A DNA stretch of 64,000 nucleotides from Burkholderiaceae bacterium (GTDB lineage: Bacteria; Pseudomonadota; Gammaproteobacteria; Burkholderiales; Burkholderiaceae_E), in contig JAJTYR010000014.1 in assembly GCA_021463505.1 (NCBI GenBank), positions 1 to 64,000 of the forward strand, written 5' to 3'. Shown piece by piece: positions 36,971 through 52,936 of this stretch. The notes under the pieces are model-generated. The model was not told the origin of the DNA and did no database searches. It was given only the letters and a program-made list of their open reading frames with translations. Positions within the stretch are counted from its first letter, which is position 1. Every line of letters starts with the position of its first letter. Both the position numbers and the translations under genes were made by a program.

Positions 36971-39064
36971 TCAACCGTTGAATCCCGTGCCTTGCGCCGC
37001 CAGTCGCGCCAGCAGTGGCGCCGGCGTCCAGAACGCGGCGTCGCCGTGCGGATTCGCGGCGAAATCGGCCATCCGGTTGACCACGTTGTAGAGCCCCGCC
37101 ATGTCGGCATACAACATCGGTCCGCCACGCCACAGCGGGAAGCCGTAGCCGGTGAGGTAGATCATGTCGATGTCGGATGCACGTGCGGCGATTCCCTCCT
37201 CGAGGATCTTCGCGCCTTCGTTGACCAGCGCGAATACCAGCCGGTGGACGATCTCGTCGTCGCCGATGCCTCGCGCCGTCACGCCGATCTCCCTGCGGTG
37301 CGCCGCAATCAGCTCGTCGACTGCCGGATCGGGCAGTGCATCACGCTTGCCCGGCGCGTAGCGGTACCAGCCGGCGCCGCTCTTCTGGCCGAAGCGACCG
37401 AGTTCGCACAGCCGGTCGGCCACCTTCGGATAGACCAGGTGCGGCTGCTCGACGTAGCGGCGCTTGCGGATGAACCAGCCCACGTCATTGCCGGCCAGGT
37501 CGCTCATCCGGAACGGGCCCATCGCGAAACCGAACTTCTCGATTGCGCGGTCGACCTGCTGCGGGCTCGCACCCTCCTCCAGCATGTACAGCCCCTGCCG
37601 GAGGTACTGCTCGAGCATCCGGTTGCCGATGAAGCCGTCGCACACGCCGGACACGACGCCGGTCTTGCGCAGCTTCTTCGACAGCTGCATCGTCGTCGCC
37701 AGCACGTCCTTCGCGGTCTTCTCGCCGCGCACGATCTCCAGCAGCTTCATCACGTTGGCCGGCGAGAAGAAGTGCGTGCCGATCACGTCGTGCGGACGTT
37801 TCGTGAACGAGGCGATCCGGTTCACGTCGAGCGTCGAGGTGTTGGTCGCGAGGATCGCGCCGGGCTTCATCACCTCATCGAGCCTGCGGAACACCGCCTC
37901 CTTCACCGGCATGTCCTCGAACACCGCCTCGATCACGATGTCGGCCGCGGCGATGTCCTCGTATGCGAGCGTCGGTTCGATCAGCGTCATGCGCCTGTCG
38001 ACGTCCTCGGCGCTCATGCGGCCTTTCTTCGCCGAGTTCCCGTAGTTCCTGCGGATCGTGGCGAGCCCGCGGTCGAGCGCGTCCTGCTTCACCTCGAGCA
38101 GCTTCACCGGAATGCCCGCGTTGGCGAAGTTCATCGCGATGCCCCCGCCCATCGTGCCGGCGCCGATGACCGCCGCCGATGCGATCGTGCGCGTCGGCGT
38201 GTCTGGGGGCACGTCGGGAATCTTGCTCGCCGCGCGCTCGGCGAAGAACGCGTGGCGCAGCGCCTTCGATTCGGGCGTCTGCACCATTTCGAGGAAGATC
38301 GTCCGCTCGCGCGCCAGCCCCGCGTCGAACGAGTCGTCCAGCGCTGCGGCAATCGCATCGACGCAGCGCGCTGGCGCCGGGAAATTCTTCGCCACCGTCT
38401 TCACGGTGTTGCGCGCGAACTGCAGGAACGCCTCGGCGTCGTCGTGCTCCACCGTCAGATCGCGCACCCGGGGCAGCCCGCGTCCCTCGGCCACCACCTT
38501 GTGCGCGAATGCCGTCGCGCCCGCGAGCAGGTCGCCGTCGACGATGTCGTCGAACAGCCGCGTGCCCCGGAACTTCTCCGACTTCACCGGATTGCCCGAG
38601 ACGATCATGTTGATCGCCATTTCGAGCGGCACCAGCCGTGGCAGCCGCTGCGTGCCGCCGGCGCCGGGAATGATCCCGAGCCTGACCTCCGGCAACGCGA
38701 TCTGCGCGCCCTGCGCGGACACCCGATAGTGGCAGCCCAGCGCCAGTTCGAGTCCGCCGCCCATCGCCACGCTGTGGATCGCGGCTACCACCGGCTTGGG
38801 GCACTGCTCGACGGTGCGGATCACGGTGAACAGCGTCGGCTCGGCGAGCGCCTTCGGCGTATTGAATTCGCGGATGTCGGCGCCCCCCGAGAACGCCTTG
38901 CCCGCGCCGGTGAGCACGATCGCCTTGATCGCCGGATCGGCCTGCGCGCGGCGCATGCCCTCGACGATGCCGGTGCGCAGCGCGTGCCCGAGCCCGTTCA
39001 CCGGCGGATTGTCCATCGTGATGATCGCGACCTCGCCCTGTGTCGCGTAGTGGGCCTGGCTCAT
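36971..39064 (-). CDS. Bifunctional enoyl-CoA hydratase/3-hydroxyacyl-CoA dehydrogenase (FadB-like)
   Basis: A 697-residue multifunctional beta-oxidation enzyme. The hydratase/isomerase domain fills about 1-200 ([27 protein letters not shown] with catalytic glutamates near 106 and 126). The NAD domain starts at [19 protein letters not shown] (297-315); [15 protein letters not shown] is the dehydrogenase substrate segment and a duplicated C-terminal helical domain ends the protein. It hydrates trans-2-enoyl-CoA and oxidises the 3-hydroxy product. It has the size of FadB/FadJ, but the operon with a Liv transporter suggests a specialised substrate. The ATG at 39064 has ATGAGCCAGGCC start after a GGGAAGCCTCC region. 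Confidence 0.94.
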
Positions 39065-39125: not shown

Positions 39126-39830
39126 TCAGACCTCCAGCCACTCGCGCCGCACCTGCGCATTGGCCTCCAGCGCCTGCGGGGTACCCTCGAACACGATGTG
39201 CCCGTGCCCCATCACGTAGACGCGCTGCGAGATCCGCAGCGCGATCGCCAGCTTCTGTTCGACCAGCAGGACGGAGATGCCGCGGTCCTTCAGCACGTTC
39301 AGGTAGTCGGCCACCAGTTCGATCACCTTCGGCGCCAGCCCTTCGGTGGGCTCGTCGATCATGATCAGTTCGGGGTCGCCCATCAGCGTGCGGCAAAGCG
39401 TGAGCATCTGCTGCTCGCCGCCCGAGAGCACGCCGGCCTGCGTGTGCTGGCGCTCGCGCAGCCGCGGGAACATGCGGTACATGTCGCCGAACGACCAGCG
39501 CCCGGGGCGCCTGCCCTTCATCCCCAGAGCCAGGTTCTGCTCGACCGTGAGGGTCGGGAAGATGTCCCGGCTCTCGGGGACGTAGCCCAGGCCGAGGTGT
39601 GCAATGCGGTACGCCTGCAGACCGAGGATCGGTTGACCCCGGAAGTCGACGCGCCCGGTGGCGGCGACCAGCCCCATGATCGCCTTGACCGTCGTCGAGC
39701 GTCCGACGCCGTTGCGCCCGAGCAGGCTGACGATCTCGCCCGTCCCCACCGACAGGTCGACGCCGTGCAGCACGTGGCTCTTGCCGTAGTAGGCTTGCAG
39801 GTTCTCGACTTCGAGCAGCGGTGCGTTCAT
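39126..39830 (-). CDS. livF: Branched-chain/amide ABC transporter ATPase LivF, Walker A lysine replaced by arginine
   Basis: A 234-residue ABC ATPase with LivF features. It has a good signature (LSGGEQ, 135-140), Walker B with Glu160 (LIMIDEPTEG) and a Gln192 in the switch position (LLVEQK), which is usual in LivF. The Walker A motif reads LLGRNGVGRSTT (36-47), so residue 44 is Arg instead of the invariant Lys. The codon is CGC at 39701-39699 on this strand. LivF starts 4 bp inside the end of livG. It energises uptake of an acid or amide together with LivG, LivM and LivH. Confidence 0.9.
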   Translation of the reverse strand: MNAPLLEVENLQAYYGKSHVLHGVDLSVGTGEIVSLLGRNGVGRSTTVKAIMGLVAATGRVDFRGQPILGLQAYRIAHLGLGYVPESRDIFPTLTVEQNLALGMKGRRPGRWSFGDMYRMFPRLRERQHTQAGVLSGGEQQMLTLCRTLMGDPELIMIDEPTEGLAPKVIELVADYLNVLKDRGISVLLVEQKLAIALRISQRVYVMGHGHIVFEGTPQALEANAQVRREWLEV

Positions 39831-40609
39831 GCGTGCGCCGCTGCGGGTTCGCCGTCGGCGCCCGAGGTGCCGAGATAGGCCTCCTGCACCGCCCGGTTCG
39901 CACGGATGGCCGCCGGGGTGCCGGTGGCGATGATCTCGCCGTACACCAGCACCGAGATGCGGTCGGCCAGGCCGAACACCACGCTCATGTCGTGCTCGAC
40001 CATGACCAGCGTCTTGCCTTCGGTGACGCGCCGGATCAGTTCGACCGCGCGGTCGCTCTCCGAACGACTCATGCCGGCCGTCGGTTCGTCGAGCAGGATC
40101 ACGTCGGCGCCGCCGGCGATCGTGATGCCGATCTCGAGCGCACGCTGCTCGGCATAGGTGAGGGTCGAAGCCGGGGTGTCGCGCCGGTTGCGCAGCCCGA
40201 TCCGCTGCAGCACCTCCTCGGCGCGCGCCGCCGCGTCAGCCAGCTTCGCGAGCCGGTGCCAGCACGAGTAGCGATAGCCAAGCGCGTACAGCGTCGCGCA
40301 GCGGATGTTCTCGTAGACCGACATCCGCGGAAAGAGGTTGGTGATCTGGAAGCTGCGCGACAGCCCCTTGCGGTTGATCTCGAACGGGCGTTGCCCGGTG
40401 ATGTCCTCGCCGTTCAGTTCGATGCGCCCGCTCGTGGACGGGAAGCGCCCCGACACCAGGTTGAACAGCGTCGACTTGCCGGCGCCGTTGGGCCCGATGA
40501 TCGCGTGGCGCTCGCCGCACGGGATCGACAGGCTCACGCCGCGGATGATCTCGGTCTTGCCGAAGCGCTTGCGCAGCCCGACCAGGTCCAGGGCGTTGGC
40601 CGCCGTCAT
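39827..40609 (-). CDS. livG: Branched-chain/amide ABC transporter ATPase LivG
   Basis: A 260-residue ABC ATPase. The Walker A GPNGAGKST (39-47) and Walker B ILLDEP (171-176) are canonical, and His206 in MVEHDM is the switch histidine. The signature motif, however, is LTYAEQRALEI (150-160) where LivG usually has LSYGEQ or LAYGQQ, so the key glycine is Ala153. It partners LivF in the cytosolic ATPase dimer. It overlaps livM and livF by 4 bp each. Confidence 0.93.
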   Translation of the reverse strand: MTAANALDLVGLRKRFGKTEIIRGVSLSIPCGERHAIIGPNGAGKSTLFNLVSGRFPSTSGRIELNGEDITGQRPFEINRKGLSRSFQITNLFPRMSVYENIRCATLYALGYRYSCWHRLAKLADAAARAEEVLQRIGLRNRRDTPASTLTYAEQRALEIGITIAGGADVILLDEPTAGMSRSESDRAVELIRRVTEGKTLVMVEHDMSVVFGLADRISVLVYGEIIATGTPAAIRANRAVQEAYLGTSGADGEPAAAHA

Positions 40610-41898
40610 CGCACGCCGGCCTCGCGCTGCAACTGCTCCTCGATCGCGACCTGCACCGCGCTCCATTCGCGAGCGAAGTGGCGACGCATGGCCTCGAAAC
40701 TGCAGGCGCCGCCCACGAGCACCCCGGCGGCGAGCACCCAGGTCTCGGGCGCGGCAGCGTCGACCGGAAACCCGAACAGCCGCATGCGCGATCCCGCCGC
40801 GAAGTTCAGCGTCAGGTGATAGCTCATCTCGACCACCATCACGGCGCCGACCAGAAGGGTCAGCCCCGACAGCAGGACGCCGGCATACGGATCGCGCAGG
40901 CGGCCGAACAGCCGGTGTCGCGCCACCCTCAGGTTCATCAGGATCAGCGACGCAACGCCGCCGGGCGCGAACATCACCATCGCGACGAAGAACACGCCCA
41001 GGTAGAACTGCCAGGCCCTGGTGTAGTCGGACAGCGCCACCGCGAAGAAGACGAAGATCACCGCGCCCAGGATCGGCCCGAAGAAGAACATCGCCCCGCC
41101 GATGAAGGCGGCCAGCAGCACGCCGCCCGAACGGATCGCCGAGACGTTCTCGGCGGTGACGATCTCGAAGTTGATCGCCGACAGACCCCCGGCGACTCCG
41201 GCGAAGAACGCCGCGACCGTCAACACGAAGAAGCGCACCCGCTGCGTGTTGTAGCCGATGAATTCGGCGCGCTCGGGGTTGTCGCGCACGGCGTTGGCGA
41301 TGCGTCCGAGCGGCGTGTGCATGAAAGCGAACATCGCCACCATGCTGGCGAAGCACCAGGCCGCGATCAGGTAGTAGACCTCGATGCCCGGGCCGAAAGT
41401 GACGCCGAGGAACGGCTCGCCGGCCACCCGGTTGCCGGAGATGCCGCCTTCGCCACCGAAGAACGCGGGAAACATCAGCGCAGCGGCAAACACCATCTCG
41501 CCGATGCCCAGCGTGATCATCGCGAACGGGGTGCCGGCCTTCTTCGTCGTCACGTAGCCGAAGACGACGCCGAACACCGCGCCGGCCAGTCCGCCCACCA
41601 GCGGTACCAGCGACACCGGCAGCCACAGCTCGCCCGCACCGATCCGGTTCAGCGCGTGCATCGCGAAGAACGCGCCGAGCCCCGAGTAGACGGCGTGGCC
41701 GAACGACAGCATGCCGCCCTGCCCGAAGATCATGTTGTAGGACAGGGCGAACACCACCATGATGCCCATCTGCGAGAGCAGCGTGATCGCGAAGCCGCTC
41801 GTAAACGCCAGCGGCAGCAGCGCGAACAGCAGCGCGGTGGCACCCCAGACGAACCAGCGCCCGACGTTGCGCGGCGCGAAACGGATCGTCCGGCCCAC
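40606..41898 (-). CDS. livM: Branched-chain/amide ABC transporter permease LivM
   Basis: A 430-residue inner-membrane protein with about 10 hydrophobic segments. It includes IFGQGGMLSFGHAVYSGLGAF near residues 55-76, where LivM family proteins have the conserved GQ/GHAxxxG sequence, and the cytosolic EAA-like loop HTPLGRIANAVRDNPERAEF. An extra hydrophobic segment and a short basic/acidic tail follow the permease core (about 330-430). The GTG start at 41898 is 1 nt after the LivH stop. Confidence 0.92.
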   Translation of the reverse strand: MGRTIRFAPRNVGRWFVWGATALLFALLPLAFTSGFAITLLSQMGIMVVFALSYNMIFGQGGMLSFGHAVYSGLGAFFAMHALNRIGAGELWLPVSLVPLVGGLAGAVFGVVFGYVTTKKAGTPFAMITLGIGEMVFAAALMFPAFFGGEGGISGNRVAGEPFLGVTFGPGIEVYYLIAAWCFASMVAMFAFMHTPLGRIANAVRDNPERAEFIGYNTQRVRFFVLTVAAFFAGVAGGLSAINFEIVTAENVSAIRSGGVLLAAFIGGAMFFFGPILGAVIFVFFAVALSDYTRAWQFYLGVFFVAMVMFAPGGVASLILMNLRVARHRLFGRLRDPYAGVLLSGLTLLVGAVMVVEMSYHLTLNFAAGSRMRLFGFPVDAAAPETWVLAAGVLVGGACSFEAMRRHFAREWSAVQVAIEEQLQREAGVR

Positions 41899-41899
41899 C

Positions 41900-42868
41900 T
41901 CAGTTCTCGCGGGTGCCCATCAGGCCCCTGGGACGCAGGACCAGGATCAGCACCATCAGCAGGTAGGGCAGCACCGGGGCGACCTGCGACACCTTGAGCG
42001 ACCACAGGCTCCAGAGCGGCGTGGCCGGGCCAACCTCGAAGCCCAGCGCCTGCAGCAGCCCGGCAGACGTCCAGTCGATGCCGATCGCGAAGGTCTGCAT
42101 GAGCCCGATCAGCAGCGAGGCGATGAACGCGCCGGCGAGCGAACCCATGCCGCCGACCACCACCACGACGAAGATGATCGAACCGACCAGCGCGGCCATC
42201 GACGGTTCGGTGACGTATGCGTTGCCACCGATCACGCCGGCCAGGCCGGCGAGCGCCGTGCCGCCGCCGAAGGTGAGCATGAACACGCGCGGCACGTTGT
42301 GCCCGAGCGCCTCCACCGTTTCCGGGTGCGCGAGCGCGGCCTGGATCACCAGTCCGATGCGGGTGCGGGTGAGCAGCAGCCAGATCGCGAACAGCATCAG
42401 GGCCGCCACCAGCATCATGAAGCCGCGATACGCCGGAAAGTGCGTCGCGTAGACCGTGAACAGCGCGCCGTCGAGCCCGGACGGGATCCGGTACGGCACC
42501 GCCGCACGGCCCCAGACGATCTGGACCAGTTCGACGACGATGTACGACAGTCCGAAGGTGAACAGCAGCTCCGGCACGTGCCCCCATTTGTGAACGCGCC
42601 GCAGGCCGTAGCGCTCGACCAGCGCACCGAGCGCGCCGACCGCCAGCGGCGCGGCCACCAGCGCGATCCAGTACCCGGTTCCCGGCAGCAGCGCATCCAG
42701 CCAGGTGCTGATCTGATAGGCCACGTAGGCGCCGATCATGTAGAACGACGCATGCGCGAAATTCAGCACGCCCATCATGCTGAAGATCAGCGTGAGCCCC
42801 GAAGCGAGCATGAACAGCAGCAGCCCGTAGCTGATGCCGTTCAGCAGCGAGATGACGAAGAATTCCAA
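41900..42868 (-). CDS. livH: Branched-chain/amide ABC transporter permease LivH
   Basis: A 322-residue permease with about 8 hydrophobic segments. The N-terminus EFFVISLLNGISYGLLLFML and GVLNFAHASFYMIGAYVAY (about 37-55) are LivH signatures, and RIGLVIQAALAHPETVEALG is the ATPase-coupling loop. I chose the TTG at 42868 because it gives the family N-terminus; a GTG at 42937 would add 23 Cys/His/Arg-rich residues. No strong ribosome binding site supports either. The binding protein gene ends 106 bp upstream. Confidence 0.9.
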   Translation of the reverse strand: MEFFVISLLNGISYGLLLFMLASGLTLIFSMMGVLNFAHASFYMIGAYVAYQISTWLDALLPGTGYWIALVAAPLAVGALGALVERYGLRRVHKWGHVPELLFTFGLSYIVVELVQIVWGRAAVPYRIPSGLDGALFTVYATHFPAYRGFMMLVAALMLFAIWLLLTRTRIGLVIQAALAHPETVEALGHNVPRVFMLTFGGGTALAGLAGVIGGNAYVTEPSMAALVGSIIFVVVVVGGMGSLAGAFIASLLIGLMQTFAIGIDWTSAGLLQALGFEVGPATPLWSLWSLKVSQVAPVLPYLLMVLILVLRPRGLMGTREN

Positions 42869-42974
42869 GGGGCGGACATTCCGGATGACGGGCAGCGACG
42901 GGTGCCGGCAGACACACCCGTGGCCGTCCCGGCGCACGCCGCTGCGCCGGCAGCGTGCGCGCGGGCTTCGGGCG

Positions 42975-44225
42975 TCAGCGCGCGGCCGGCCGCTTCATCT
43001 GGCAGGAAGTGGGCTGCGCGGCCACGTAGCTGTCGAGCTTCGCTTCCGTACGCCAGCCGTAGCCGGTGTTCTCCTGGTCGTACCTGACCGCCTTGCCGTC
43101 GGTCTTCTGCCAGGACGAGATGTAGACCGCCTGCTGCGCCTGGTGGTCGGTCGTGCGCATCTCGACCTCGCCGTTCAGCGACTGCACTTTCAGTCCTTCC
43201 ATGGCCAGTGCGACCTTCAGCGGATCGGTGGAGCGGGCCTTCTTCATGGCCTCCGAGAGCAGCTTGAAGCCGGTGTAGGAGGCCATCACGTAGAAGTCGT
43301 CGTTGAACTTCTTCTTGAAACCCTCGACGATCGGCCGCGGGTCGATCACCGAGTCGTTCGGGTGCCAGTAGCTGACCTGCCGGACGTGGTCCGCGCCGGA
43401 GGCCCCCATCGCGGTGGGCACGCCGGTGGTTCCGGCGTAGTAGGTGTAGAAGTTGGCGTTCAGGCCGGCGTCTTTGGCGGCCTTGACCATCAGCGCAAGG
43501 TCGGCGCCCCAGTTGCCGGTGATGATCGTGTCGGCGCCCGCCGCCTTGATCTTGGCGACGTACGGTGCGAAGTCGCGCACCTGCGCGAGCGGATGGCGGT
43601 CCTTGCCGACCACCTGGACGTCGGGACGCTTGCGCTTCAGGTATTCCTCGGCGGCCTTCTCCACCGAGTGCCCGAACGCGTAGTCCTGGTTGATCAGGTA
43701 GACCTTCCTGATCTCCGGGCGCCTGGCCATGTAGGAGGTCAGCGCCTCCATCTTCATGTCGGCGTTGATGTCGAGCGCGAAATGCCAGAAATTGCAGCGC
43801 GCATTGGTCAGCGACGGATCGATCGCCGCATAGTTCAGGAAGACGATCTCCTTGCCCGGGTTGCGCTCGTTGTGCCTGGCCACCGCGTCGCTCAGTGCAA
43901 TCGCCACCCCCGAACCGTTGCCCTGCACGATGTAGCGGATCCCCTGGTCGACGATCGACTTCAGTGCCGTGAGGCTTTCCTGCGCACTGAGCTTGTTGTC
44001 GAAGGTCACCACCTCGAACTTCACGTCGCCGGCCCACTTCTGCTGGTTGGCCAGGTCGGCGGCGTACTGCCAGCTGCGCACCATGTTCTGGCCGAGCGGC
44101 GCCATCATGCCCGACAGCGGGTCGATCCAGGCGACCTTTACCGTGCCCGACTGGGCGAGCGCCGTCTGGGATGCCAGGGCGGCGGATACGGCGAAGATCG
44201 CCGTCGCGATACGAAATCCGGTCAT
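42975..44225 (-). CDS. ABC transporter substrate-binding protein (LivJ/amide type)
   Basis: A 416-residue periplasmic type I binding protein. Residues 1-25 are a Sec signal peptide ending in ALAQ. VKVAWIDPLSGMMAPLGQNM starts the mature protein, and GNGSGVAIALSDAV and AADTIITGNWGADL-like sequence (here GADTIITGNWGADL) follow. A GAGGAG lies just before the ATG at 44225. Binding proteins of this family take up branched-chain amino acids, urea, amides or aromatic acids. The neighbouring acyl-CoA synthetase and beta-oxidation genes point to a carboxylic acid. Confidence 0.92.
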   Translation of the reverse strand: MTGFRIATAIFAVSAALASQTALAQSGTVKVAWIDPLSGMMAPLGQNMVRSWQYAADLANQQKWAGDVKFEVVTFDNKLSAQESLTALKSIVDQGIRYIVQGNGSGVAIALSDAVARHNERNPGKEIVFLNYAAIDPSLTNARCNFWHFALDINADMKMEALTSYMARRPEIRKVYLINQDYAFGHSVEKAAEEYLKRKRPDVQVVGKDRHPLAQVRDFAPYVAKIKAAGADTIITGNWGADLALMVKAAKDAGLNANFYTYYAGTTGVPTAMGASGADHVRQVSYWHPNDSVIDPRPIVEGFKKKFNDDFYVMASYTGFKLLSEAMKKARSTDPLKVALAMEGLKVQSLNGEVEMRTTDHQAQQAVYISSWQKTDGKAVRYDQENTGYGWRTEAKLDSYVAAQPTSCQMKRPAAR

Positions 44226-44366
44226 GGGTGTCTCCTCTCGTGTCAGGGGTTCGATGGCCGCATGGCGCCGTCGCGGCCAGCCGGGTGCCGGCCGATCATA
44301 TCCGAAGCGCCGGATCGCGCAACACTGCCGCGGCGAGCCCTGACGGCCACCGCGGCGGCCACGCAA

Positions 44367-46010
44367 TCAGGCGCCCGGCAGGCGGTAATCGTGGAACTGC
44401 TCGCGCAGCTTCGTCTTCAGGATCTTGCCCGTGGCGCCCAGTGGAATCGACTCGACGAACTGCACGTCGTCGGGCATCCACCACCTGGCCACCTTGCCTT
44501 CGTAGAACGCGATCAGCTCGTCTCTCGTGACTTCTGCACCGGGCTTCTTCACGATCACCAGCAGCGGTCGCTCGTCCCACTTCGGGTGCGGCACCCCGAT
44601 CACCGCGGCGTTGGCGACCGCCGGATGCCCGATCGCCAGGTTCTCCAGGTCGATCGTGCTGATCCATTCGCCGCCCGACTTGATCACGTCCTTGCTGCGA
44701 TCGGTGATCTGCATGTAGCCGTCGGCGTCGATCGTCGCCACGTCGCCGGTCGGGAACCAGCCACGGCCGTCGGCGTCGTATTTCAGCGGATCGCCGCCCT
44801 CGCCGCGAAAATACTCGCGGATCACCCAGGGACCGCGCACCAGCAGGTTGCCGAAGGTCTTGCCGTCCCACGGCAGCTCGCGATACTCGTCGTCGACGAT
44901 CTTCATGTCGACGCCGAAGATCACGTGGCCCTGCTTCTCCAGGATCTTCTGCTGCGCGGCTTCGGATTGTCGCAGGTGCCTGTTCTGCAGGCGGCACAGC
45001 GTGCCCAGCGGCGACATCTCGGTCATCCCCCAGGCGTGGATCACCTCGACGCCGAATTCGTCGCGGAACGCGCGGATCATCGCCGGCGGGCAGGCCGAAC
45101 CACCGATCACCGTCCGCTTGAAGGAGGAGAACTTCACGCCCGCCTGCCGCACGTGCTGCAGCAACCCGAGCCAGACGGTGGGCACGCCGGCCGAGTAGGT
45201 CACGCCCTCGCTCTCGAACAGTTCGTACAGCGACTTGCCGTCCAGCTGCGCGCCGGGGAAAACGATCTTCGCTCCGACCAGCGGGCAGGTGTACGGCAGT
45301 CCCCAGGCGTTGACGTGGAACATCGGCACCACCGGCAGGATGCAGTCGCGCGACGAAGCCCCCATCGCGTCGGGCAGCGCCGCCGCGTAGGCGTGCAGCA
45401 CCGTGGAGCGATGGGTGTACATCGCGCCCTTGGGGTTGCCGGTGGTGCCGGAGGTGTAGCACAGGCCGGCGGCGCTGCGCTCGTCGATCTCGGGCCAGCG
45501 GTAGTCGGTGGAGCCCCGTGCGAGCAGCGTCTCGTAGTTGACCAGGTTCACCACCCTGGCCGAGGCCGGCTGGCGGTCTTCGTCGGCCATCGCGATCCAG
45601 CTCTTCACGTTCGGGCAATGCGCGGCGATCGCCTCGACGATCGGCAGGAAAGTGAGGTCGAAGGCCAGGTGCACGTCGCCGGCGTGGTTGACGATCCAGG
45701 CGATCTGCTCCGGGTGCAATCGCGGATTGATCGTGTGGATCACCGCGCCCATGCCGCCCACCGCGTAGTACAACTCCATGTGCCGGTAACCGTTCCACGC
45801 GAGCGTGGCGACGCGATCGCCGATCGACACGCCGTCGCGCGACAGCGCATCGGCCAGTTGTCGCGAGCGGCGCTCGCAATCGGCGTAGGTGTAGCGGTGC
45901 AGGTCGCCTTCGACGCGGCGCGAGACGATCTCGGTGTCCCCGTAGTGGCGCGCGGCATGCTGCAGGATGCCCGAGACGAGCAGCGGCATGTCCATCATCA
46001 GTCCTTGCAT
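44367..46010 (-). CDS. Acyl-CoA synthetase (long/medium-chain AMP-binding family)
   Basis: A 547-residue adenylate-forming enzyme. It has the P-loop [13 protein letters not shown], the A5-like [11 protein letters not shown] and the A7-A8 region [20 protein letters not shown], and Lys in [10 protein letters not shown] near the C-terminus (A10) that takes part in adenylation. It makes acyl-CoA from a free acid, ATP and CoA. It is the most upstream gene of the minus-strand catabolic run; 141 bp separate it from the binding-protein gene. ATG at 46010; the next in-frame ATGs at residues 5 and 6 are alternatives. The gene is divergent from msrB. Confidence 0.93.
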
Positions 46011-49346: not shown

Positions 49347-50825
49347 ATGCCTCTCGTCTCGCTTCGCAATGTCTTCAAGACCTTCGGCTCGACGCGGGCG
49401 CTGGCCGGTGCCTCGCTCGAGATCGAAGCCGGCGAGATCGTCGCGTTGATGGGCTCCAATGGCGCCGGCAAATCGACGCTGGTCAGGATCCTCTCGGGGG
49501 TGACCGGCGCCGATGCCGGCGACATCGTGCTGAAGGGGCGTCCATTTGCGCCACGATCTCCGGCCGAAGCGGCAGCGGCGGGCATCGCCACGGTGCATCA
49601 GTCGACTGACGTCGTCGGCATCCCCGGGCTCGCGGTCGCCGATGCGCTGCTGATCGACCGCTATGCCGATCGTTCGATGCCCTTGTTCCTGAATCGCGCC
49701 AGCGTGCGCGCCCGCGCCCGCGCGATCGTCGAGGAAGCCGGCTTCGGGTTGCCGCTCGATCGCGATTTTGCCGAACTCGCGCCCGCCGACCGCCAACTGG
49801 TGGCCATCGCGCGCGCCATCGGCCGCAAGGCCGAACTGCTGATTCTCGATGAACCGACCGCCAGCCTGTCGGGCACCGAGGCAAAGCGCCTGTATGCCAC
49901 GCTGAAGCGCCTGGCCGCCCGCGGCATCGCCATCCTGTTCATCTCCCATCGCCTCGCCGATCTCGAGGCGCTGGCCGACCGGGTCGAGGTCCTGCGCGGC
50001 GGGCGCAACGCCGGATGCTTTCACCACCCAGTCGATTTCGATGCGGCCGTCGAGACGATGATCGGGCGCCCGCTCGCCGCTGCGCATCCCGATGCGCGCG
50101 CCGCGAGCGGACCAGCAGTGCTGAGCCTCATCGGCATCCGGCTGTTGCCGCACTCGCAGCCGTTCGACCTGGAACTGCACGCCGGCGAGGTGGTCGCCGT
50201 GACGGGCGTGCTCGGCGCCGGCAAGAGCCGCCTGCTCTCGGGCATCTTCGGTCATGGCCGTTTCGCCGCCGGCCGGATGCTGCTCGACGGCCGGCCCCAT
50301 GCGCCGCGCGATCCGGCCGACGCCATCGCCGCCGGCGTGGTGATGGCGGGCGAAGATCGCCACCGCTCATCGCTGATGCCGGCGGGCTGGCCGGGCGAGG
50401 CGGTACGCGCCACCATCAGCCTGCCGCACCTGCGCCGCTGGTTTCCGTCGGGCTTCGTCGCAGCGGATCGCGAGACTGCGCAAGGCGCGCGCGCGATCGC
50501 CCGGCTCGGCATCCGCGCCAGTTCGCCGGGCGCCTCCGTCTGGTCGCTGTCCGGCGGCAACCAGCAGAAGACCGTGATTGCACGCTGGGAGGCCGAGCCG
50601 AGCCGCGTGTTGCTGCTCGACGAACCGTTCCAGGGCGTCGACCTCGGCGCGCGCCGGGACATCATCGGCGCGCTGCGCGCCGATACCCGTCGCGCCACGC
50701 TGATCGCGACCTCCGATCCGGAGGAAGCGGCCGAAGTCGCGGACCGCTTCGTGGTGCTCGACGGCCACGGCCTGGTTGCTTTCGCGTCGGGCACAGCCAT
50801 GCCGAATCGGGACGCCCGGGCATGA
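49347..50825 (+). CDS. Sugar ABC transporter ATP-binding protein (RbsA/MglA type, two NBDs)
   Basis: A 492-residue protein with two fused ATPase domains. NBD1 has GSNGAGKSTL (36-45) and LLILDEPTASL but a signature LAPADRQLVAIARAI instead of LSGGQ, as is usual for RbsA-like proteins. NBD2 has GVLGAGKSRLL, a canonical LSGGNQQK and VLLLDEPFQGVD; here the P-loop lysine is kept, unlike some RbsA homologues. It powers import of a monosaccharide or related compound. The last 4 bp overlap the permease start (ATGA). Confidence 0.93.
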   Translation: MPLVSLRNVFKTFGSTRALAGASLEIEAGEIVALMGSNGAGKSTLVRILSGVTGADAGDIVLKGRPFAPRSPAEAAAAGIATVHQSTDVVGIPGLAVADALLIDRYADRSMPLFLNRASVRARARAIVEEAGFGLPLDRDFAELAPADRQLVAIARAIGRKAELLILDEPTASLSGTEAKRLYATLKRLAARGIAILFISHRLADLEALADRVEVLRGGRNAGCFHHPVDFDAAVETMIGRPLAAAHPDARAASGPAVLSLIGIRLLPHSQPFDLELHAGEVVAVTGVLGAGKSRLLSGIFGHGRFAAGRMLLDGRPHAPRDPADAIAAGVVMAGEDRHRSSLMPAGWPGEAVRATISLPHLRRWFPSGFVAADRETAQGARAIARLGIRASSPGASVWSLSGGNQQKTVIARWEAEPSRVLLLDEPFQGVDLGARRDIIGALRADTRRATLIATSDPEEAAEVADRFVVLDGHGLVAFASGTAMPNRDARA

Positions 50826-51856: not shown

Positions 51857-51892
51857 CCGCTCGATCCCTCAACTCGAAGAAACGGAGTGCCA

Positions 51893-52936
51893 ATGAAAAC
51901 CTCGATTCTTTCCGTCGCCGGCCTCGCTCTGAGTGCCGCCCTCGTTGCCGCGCCGGTGGCCGCCCAGGGCCTGCGCGGGGCTCCGGCGCCGTTCGACAAG
52001 GGCGGCGTGGAGATCGCCGTGGTCTCGTTCCTCGGCAGCGGCGACTGGTTGCAGGCCTTCGAGGCAGGCACGAAGCGCCAGGCCAGCGCGCTCGGCGTCA
52101 CGCTGACGCTGTCACAGGCGCGCAACGACAACGACACGCAGCGCAATCTCGTCGAGCAGGCGATCAACCGCCGCGTCAAGGGCATCGTCATCAACAACGG
52201 TCGGCCCGAAGTGCTCAAGGACGTCGCCCAGAAGGCGCTCGATGCCGGCATCAAGGTGGTGGCCTACGACGTCAACCTCGACAATCCCGCCATCCCGCAG
52301 ATCGAGCAAAGCGACAGGGACATGGCCCGTCTGGTGCTCGAACAGGCGATCCGGGACAAGGGCGACGGATTCACCGCGGGCGCCGTCTACGTTGCCGGCT
52401 TCGCACCGCTCGATCGCCGCTACGCGGTCTTCAAGGAGTTCGTCAAGAACCACAAGCTCACCGAAAAGGCCGTCTGGGGCGTGGTCAACGACACCGTGCC
52501 GGCCTCGGTCGCCGACCAGACCAAGGCGGTGCTGCGGGCCAATCCGGACATCTCCGTCGTCTTCACGCCGTGGGACGAGTTTGCCAAAGGGGTCAAGCTC
52601 GCCATCGACGAACTCGGCGTCGCGAAGAAGGTGAAGATCTACGGCGTCGACACCTCGACAGCCGACATCCAGTTGATGATCGAACCCGACAGCGCCTGGG
52701 TGGCGACGGCTGCCACCAACGCCGCCGTGGTCGGCGAAGTGGCAGTGCGCGCCGTGTCGCTGGCGATCGCCGGCCAGAACCCCGGGCGTGCAGTGATGCT
52801 GCAGCCGACGCTGGTGACCCGCAAGGACCTCATCGACAACAGGATCAGGACCATCGAGGATCTGCAGAAGAAGTTCCCGGCCTTCAGCGCCTCGAGCGCC
52901 GCCACGGCGAAGTGGATCCCGGCGCCGAAGCACTGA
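51893..52936 (+). CDS. Sugar ABC transporter substrate-binding protein (type I, RbsB/peripla_BP_4)
   Basis: A 347-residue periplasmic binding protein. The signal peptide ends about residue 24 (PVAAQ). It is followed by EIAVVSFLGSGDWLQAFEAG and VKGIVINNGRPEVLKDVAQK, with aromatic/polar residues of a sugar pocket, and IYGVDTSTADIQLMIE. A CGGAG lies 6 nt before the ATG at 51893. The gene is third in the ATPase-permease-binding protein order, and the ligand is unknown. Confidence 0.93.
   Translation: MKTSILSVAGLALSAALVAAPVAAQGLRGAPAPFDKGGVEIAVVSFLGSGDWLQAFEAGTKRQASALGVTLTLSQARNDNDTQRNLVEQAINRRVKGIVINNGRPEVLKDVAQKALDAGIKVVAYDVNLDNPAIPQIEQSDRDMARLVLEQAIRDKGDGFTAGAVYVAGFAPLDRRYAVFKEFVKNHKLTEKAVWGVVNDTVPASVADQTKAVLRANPDISVVFTPWDEFAKGVKLAIDELGVAKKVKIYGVDTSTADIQLMIEPDSAWVATAATNAAVVGEVAVRAVSLAIAGQNPGRAVMLQPTLVTRKDLIDNRIRTIEDLQKKFPAFSASSAATAKWIPAPKH

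Follow-up and report, generated by a model that had tools for sequence, protein, structure and literature searches.

Two unlike predicted composite ATP sites in a Liv-type ABC importer of a Burkholderiaceae bacterium

The Liv-type gene run and the residues of its ATP sites

The stretch of DNA that was analysed, here called the window, comprises 64,000 nucleotides from a Burkholderiaceae bacterium (positions 1 to 64,000 of contig JAJTYR010000014.1, assembly GCA_021463505.1) and has a G+C content of 69%. Its minus strand carries a gene run encoding a substrate-binding protein, LivH, LivM, LivG and LivF, in this order, where the livG and livF reading frames overlap by 4 bases. The features are given below; base positions of the Walker A motif, the Gln192 codon and the LivG signature were derived from the residue numbers.

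36971..39064, minus strand: FadJ-like enoyl-CoA hydratase / 3-hydroxyacyl-CoA dehydrogenase, downstream of livF
39126..39830, minus strand: LivF-type ATPase subunit, 234 aa, with Arg44, Glu86, LSGGEQ (135-140), Asp159-Glu160, Gln192 and Lys193
39252-39254, minus strand: LivF residue 193 (Lys)
39255..39257, minus strand: codon of LivF Gln192, switch (H-loop)
39690..39719, minus strand: LivF Walker A GRNGVGRSTT, residues 38-47, Arg44 in place of Lys
39827..40609, minus strand: LivG-type ATPase subunit, 260 aa, with Lys45, Gln88, LTYAEQ (150-155), Asp174-Glu175 and His206
40145..40162, minus strand: LivG signature LTYAEQ, Ala153 at the position of the conserved Gly
40606..41898, minus strand: LivM-type permease (PF02653)
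41900..42937, minus strand: LivH-type permease (PF02653), reading frame as listed, start provisional
42975..44366, minus strand: periplasmic substrate-binding protein (Peripla_BP_6), reading frame as listed, start provisional
44367..46010, minus strand: acyl-CoA ligase, same gene run, upstream of the transporter genes

The ABC_tran domains of LivF and LivG adjoin two BPD_transp_2 permeases and a Peripla_BP_6 binding protein, the set by which a Liv-type importer is recognised. Both ATPases stayed below the NCBIfam equivalog cut-offs, LivF with 190 vs 441 bits for the LivF model and 221.3 vs 285.8 bits for UrtE, LivG with 171.5 vs 362 bits for the LivG model and 195.6 vs 304.1 bits for UrtD, therefore Liv-type is used here as a family name and not as proof of branched-chain amino acid transport. 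PDB sequence searches matched the LivF-like structure 1ji0, which in the alignment likewise has Gln at the switch, and the LivG-like structure 1g6h, while the searches with LivM and LivH matched no solved structure.

A sequence-only reading of the window had pointed out three residues, Arg44 instead of the Walker A lysine and Gln192 at the switch of LivF, and Ala153 instead of the signature glycine of LivG, and had placed all of them in one composite site. Each was located by script, in LivF within GRNGVGRSTT (38-47) and VEQK (190-193), beside the signature LSGGEQ at 135-140, and in LivG within LTYAEQ (150-155), beside the Walker A GPNGAGKST at 39 and VEHD (204-207) with His206; the orthologues agree. 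The LivF-side site further carries Glu86 of the LivF Q-loop and the non-canonical Thr151 and Tyr152 of LivG, which had been absent from that reading. In an ABC dimer the Walker motifs of one nucleotide-binding domain (NBD) face the signature of the partner NBD, and by this general geometry the LivG signature with Ala153 should lie opposite LivF Arg44 in the heterodimer. The proposed placement holds as far as motifs can tell: the three residues would share one composite site, and the residues of the other are canonical. Confinement of the non-consensus residues to one predicted site is the pattern by which an asymmetric ABC transporter is recognised. The catalytic Walker B glutamate of the window LivF, the loss of which is frequent, though not universal, in degenerate sites, is kept (Asp159-Glu160).

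Close LivF relatives (E<=1e-75) were found in 42 of the 74 family genomes, the own genome included. In the loci read from these 42 genomes Arg44 is present in 30/30 LivF and Ala153 in 29/29 readable LivG partners, and three more of the 42 genomes agree. Since the orthologues share both states, neither an assembly slip nor an event in a single genome can account for them. Compared with the window genes, dN/dS lay at 0.11-0.33 in the 27 of 28 LivF comparisons for which it was defined and at 0.06-0.40 in all 28 LivG comparisons; these values are rough, with many of the pairs well diverged. A pseudogene or a sequence error was ruled out by the intact frames, by dN/dS below 1 and by the identical states in relatives.

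The one-sided pattern in LivF/LivG pairs

In order to place these residues in the family, 259 non-redundant LivF/LivG operon pairs were read, LivF and LivG being assigned by the better score to the two window proteins. The sample is non-random. It combines paralogues from the window's own genome (19 LivF/LivG pairs read there), orthologues from the family, the 80 best of at least 591 matches and the top of a ranked phylum list, and was drawn further from a class sample, from the source genomes of some named loci in several phyla and from the phylum to which a deltaproteobacterial relative belongs. A set of 263 loci gave 229 pairs after 2 loci without LivF, 20 without a separate LivG reading frame within 400 bp and 12 repeats had dropped out. 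Among those 20 are L081, L082 and L233, where both proteins share one reading frame. The 259 pairs come from 313 loci, where L264-L283 were skipped and the same 2, 20 and 12 were left out. The skipped loci hold 21 pairs: 14 re-cover clade pairs already counted, L275, L282 and L283 add three to the clade (all Arg44/Ala153), L279-L281 are other LivF genes with Lys and Gly, and the second pair of L277 has Lys44 and the signature TSQEER.

The LivG-side site was found without exception in its canonical form, with Lys45 in 257/257 and Gln88 in 258/258 readable proteins, Walker B DE and His206 each in 259/259, and SGG in the LivF signature facing the LivG Walker motifs in all 259 pairs. On the LivF side only the Walker B DE was equally constant (259/259). 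Position 44 is Lys in 197 and Arg in 62 pairs, the Q-loop residue is Glu in 240, Gln in 13 and Asp in 6, the switch is Gln in 242, Lys in 8, His in 8 and Arg in 1, and the facing LivG signature reads SGG in just two pairs (L020, L226). Altogether 258 of the 259 pairs have at least one non-canonical LivF-site position among Walker A, Q-loop, switch and facing signature. The sole exception, L020 of the own genome (C45:9308-10018), is fully canonical in both sites (Lys, Gln, SGG, His); it scores low, is a doubtful member of the true Liv pairs and may be an outgroup or a reverted pair. Four other LivG paralogues of this genome (L005, L007, L011, L021) have the signatures MTLSDR, LTLPDR, LTLAMR and ITPSQQ, in which the signature Gly is absent beside a LivF with Lys44.

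It follows from these position counts that Gln192 is ordinary for LivF and that the asymmetry is, in this sample, a property of the family. Gln192 can no longer be regarded as a special defect of the window protein, as had been proposed, since the same residue occupies the switch in 242 of the 259 pairs and in E. coli LivF. E. coli K-12 LivFG has the same split and resembles the window importer in operon layout, in fold, in its PF02653 permeases, in the Gln switch and Glu Q-loop of LivF and in a LivG signature other than SGG (LAYGDQ); it differs in the Walker A Lys of LivF and the signature Gly of LivG, where the window has Arg44 and Ala153. The heterodimeric importers OppD/OppF and DppD/DppF of E. 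coli, read as controls, carry Lys, Gln, SGG and His in each of their two sites.

The counts also bear on the possibility that both sites hydrolyse ATP at comparable rates, the substitutions in the LivF site (His to Gln, Lys to Arg, Gly to Ala) being tolerated. Such an explanation agrees with the Walker B DE kept in every LivF and with Lys44 in 197 of the 259, but it leaves Walker A Lys, Q-loop, switch and facing signature all deviating in one and the same site, while their counterparts do not deviate in any readable case of the 259 pairs, and the E. coli Opp and Dpp pairs are without such a split. We therefore hold it to be unlikely. Hydrolysis predominantly at the LivG site is favoured because that site is without exception in the 259 pairs while the LivF-site positions vary, and because the Opp/Dpp controls are canonical on both sides and DppDF has both sites working (see below).

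Origins of Arg44 and its relation to LivG position 153

Arg44 is distributed over two clades. In clade 1, to which the window pair belongs, Arg44 is present in 51/51 pairs and the facing LivG position 153 is Ala in 49 and Ser in 2; three further clade-1 pairs and one fused chain also have Arg44 with a signature lacking Gly. Arg44, Gln192 and Glu86 are invariant in all 51 pairs, down to 55% LivF identity, and Arg44 is written with five different codons (50 of the 51 are CGN, one is AGA). This invariance, with Arg44 kept through five codons, is a further reason for favouring hydrolysis at one site. A recent one-step change to Arg44 was considered and rejected, given CGN in 50/51 vs the AAR codons of Lys44, which alone is weak evidence at 69% G+C. 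Additionally, the residue after the switch Gln is Lys193 in 50/51 clade-1 LivF, vs 1/197 LivF with Lys44 and 0/11 of clade 2, and is thus one more fixed change next to this site. Arg44 with a non-Gly signature is thus a fixed, inherited trait of the clade, and the suggestion of the sequence-only reading that Arg44 may be a lineage trait was borne out by 30/30 family LivF and 51/51 clade-1 pairs.

Clade 1 extends over Burkholderiales, several Alphaproteobacteria, a gammaproteobacterial MAG and MAGs titled Deltaproteobacteria that are placed in Myxococcota. A close LivG relative (E<=1e-70) occurs in 4 of 185 class genomes, the own included, the three others being all Arg/Ala, and, in the phylum of the deltaproteobacterial relative, an Arg44 LivF was found in 4 of 198 genomes, among 30 loci read there. 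When a phylum was sampled by rank in the E. coli LivF model, Lys44 and Gln192 were present in 78/78 pairs and Arg44 in none, so Arg44 is far rarer than the 62 of 259 suggest.

In the LivF tree of 96 rows Arg44 changes twice, with support 100/100 for clade 1 (23 rows) and 100/95 for clade 2 (11 rows), and in quick trees of 229 rows it changes 2 times (LivF tree) or 3 times (LivG tree), all of these being minimum counts on unrooted trees that retained the columns of the trait itself. A single Arg44 clade, with the 34 rows together, was rejected (p-AU 5.7e-6), the tested group being defined by the trait. Clade 2 includes members from Roseobacteraceae, Burkholderiaceae, Comamonadaceae and others, together with the own-genome paralogue L004; it keeps Gly153 in 11/11 pairs, with signatures such as LPYGRK that are common to its Lys44 neighbours. 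The nearest Lys44 relatives of clade 1 are Lys/Gly pairs. L047 and L082, which have an Arg44 LivF without a separate LivG reading frame, nest within clade 1. A group near clade 1 combines His192 with Lys44 and the signature LSYGKH (L075, L293, L294, L299, L302, L303, L313), so that its LivF site is partly canonical; together with the fully canonical LivF site of L020, these seven pairs show that the pattern does not hold without exception.

The matching of Arg44 and Ala153 stressed by the sequence-only reading was thus found to be complete in clade 1 (51/51), where it goes back to a single change; it does not extend to clade 2, so that for one of the two origins Arg44 goes with a normal signature Gly, the outcome that the same reading had named as refuting the match. 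When co-occurrence was checked on the 259 pairs, clade 1 had both states, and another 16 pairs have a residue other than Gly at 153 despite Lys44. Functional coupling of the two residues, in which the larger Arg requires a changed signature and the changes must occur together, is consistent with the 51 clade-1 pairs, the three further pairs and the fused chain, and with the branch between clade 1 and its neighbours, on which no pair with just one of Arg44 and non-Gly 153 was seen. It is at odds with the separate clade 2, which keeps Gly in 11/11 and cannot be merged with clade 1, and with the history of position 153, for which the 229 pairs require at least 9 changes between Gly and non-Gly by the LivF tree and at least 7 by the LivG tree, only one of them coinciding with that of Arg44. 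The naive association is strong (Fisher p=1.5e-24), but there are only 2 independent contrasts (3 or 4 when the two traits exchange roles), where at least 6 informative ones would be required and a sign test (p=1) is powerless to decide; the association therefore rests on shared descent and provides no statistical evidence for coupling, which we consider improbable.

The gene order acyl-CoA ligase, binding protein, LivH, LivM, LivG, LivF, FadJ-like enzyme and thiolase is found in 10 of the 17 clade loci with long flanks, as in the window; among the remaining ones L269 and L271 are cut or miss part of that order. The window ligase scores 1000.6 bits with the model for 3-(methylthio)propionyl-CoA ligase, which has a cut-off of 822, and also passes two broader models for long-chain-fatty-acid ligases. 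Judging from this context of ligase, FadJ-like enzyme and thiolase, the importer may take up a carboxylic acid instead of an amino acid. A tie between the ATP-site trait and the acyl-CoA-ligase run was considered and rejected, as Arg44/Ala153 is present in L275, L277, L278 and L283 without a ligase in the stretch read (for L283 the upstream part past the binding-protein gene is just ~1 kb long) and in L282, where the only ligase is 29% identical and lies elsewhere. Since these five distant loci lack the context, the trait goes with the transporter and not with the pathway.

Parallels in other transporters and the proposed mechanism

Degenerate ATP sites are already known elsewhere, in ABCG5/ABCG8, Pdr5 and RbsA. 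In an open-licence literature collection, searched by title and the start of the abstract, unequal ATP sites in LivF/LivG were not found described. The nearest worked example of a Walker A Lys-to-Arg change combined with a signature change in one site is ABCG5/ABCG8, a human exporter of another ABC subfamily: one of its sites is reported to be degenerate through these two changes and the other to hydrolyse (PMC7756269, PMC8100176), Arg111 in the Walker A of ABCG8 facing the ABCG5 signature in the degenerate site (PMC8100176). This published parallel also favours the one-site reading. The fungal PDR exporter Pdr5, for which PMC7756269 describes changes at the Walker A Lys, at the H-loop His and in the facing signature of one site, is more extreme than LivF, with Asn at the catalytic Glu and Cys at the Walker A Lys. 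According to the same review, individual changes in Pdr5 have little effect, whereas combinations of them do have one. For the importer DppDF, a single Glu-to-Gln variant of either subunit is reported in PMC12136057 to keep an evident and similar ATPase activity, therefore this pair, symmetric in sequence, has two working sites.

A further parallel is offered by the RbsA-type importers (CUT2 in transporter classification), which share with the Liv-type the PF02653 permease, E. coli RbsC, LivH and LivM all matching this family; their two NBDs lie in one chain, whereas LivF and LivG of the window are separate genes. In 32 RbsA-type sequences (30 loci from 34 matching genomes among 120 searched, together with RbsA and a cut MglA of E. 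coli) all 32 NBD1 sites have the canonical residues. The NBD2 site has a Walker A with Arg in 27, Lys in 4 and Gln in 1, a Glu Q-loop in 28, a Ser switch in 29 and Walker B DE in 29, and the NBD1 signature that faces it has Ala in 17, Ser in 7 and Gly in 8. In its Arg, its Glu and its facing Ala or Ser (24/32) this site resembles that of LivF. The 27 Arg and the 24 facing Ala or Ser would suit a coupling of the two changes, to which the Gly kept in 8 of the 32 is again opposed. A degenerate site is reported for B. subtilis RbsA and NupO in PMC11466899. The sequence-only reading was right in that the window importer has an asymmetry in sequence, but this is not particular to it, being found in 258 of the 259 pairs and as the same split in the RbsA-type.

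The window itself encodes a fused two-NBD sugar-importer ATPase at 49347-50825 (plus strand), with AraG as the best NCBIfam model (335.7 bits, below the cut-off of 689), a Lys in the NBD2 Walker A and the NBD1 signature LAPADR; a Peripla_BP_4 binding protein lies nearby at 51887-52936 (plus strand).

One-sided use of ATP might even be ancestral to the PF02653 importers, LivF and RbsA-NBD2 both descending from the holding subunit and Arg having been fixed at least three times, in LivF clade 1, in LivF clade 2 and in RbsA-NBD2. This we propose only tentatively: NBD1 and NBD2 group together in the best tree (94/95, not starred), and the alternatives that join LivF with NBD2 (p-AU 0.479) or LivG with NBD1 (p-AU 0.508) were not rejected in the AU test.

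We consider it probable, on the residues and their distribution, that the window encodes a Liv-type importer with two unlike ATP sites, of which that of LivG hydrolyses ATP and that of LivF mainly holds it. The hydrolytic site would be formed by the Walker motifs, Q-loop and His206 of LivG with LSGGEQ of LivF. The Walker motifs of LivF with the LivG signature would most likely bind ATP and clamp the dimer with little turnover, so that each cycle would consume about one ATP, chiefly in the site of LivG. The LivF site is not called dead, mainly because Glu160 is retained, and residual hydrolysis there is quite possible. The model presumes 1:1 pairing of LivF and LivG, which is favoured by L082:1084-3687 (plus strand) of an Ottowia MAG, where LivM, LivG and LivF are fused in one reading frame of 868 residues (PF02653 and two ABC_tran stretches) that carries the same states, Arg at Walker A with LPYAAQ; L081 and L233 are LivG-LivF fusions in one reading frame, and for all three frame errors of the source assembly are possible. 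An arrangement in which LivF is not opposed to LivG, with homodimers or an exchange with paralogous ATPases, would void the composite-site argument. It would be conceivable with 19 LivF/LivG pairs read in the genome and with the multitask ATPases that PMC7658222 reports in other importers, but in view of the 4-base overlap of livF and livG, their side-by-side position in the clade loci and the three fusions it is very improbable.

Loss of the catalytic Walker B glutamate is named as a hallmark of degenerate exporter sites in PMC7544095, and in the literature covered degenerate ATP sites concern mostly exporters. If Liv-type importers hydrolyse ATP at one site, estimates of ATP per substrate and models taken from symmetric importers such as DppDF would fail to carry over to them, and the role of each subunit would become predictable. 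Furthermore, the Arg44/Ala153 clade with its Lys44 neighbours, the His192 group included, offers a natural series for the stepwise dismantling of an ATP site.
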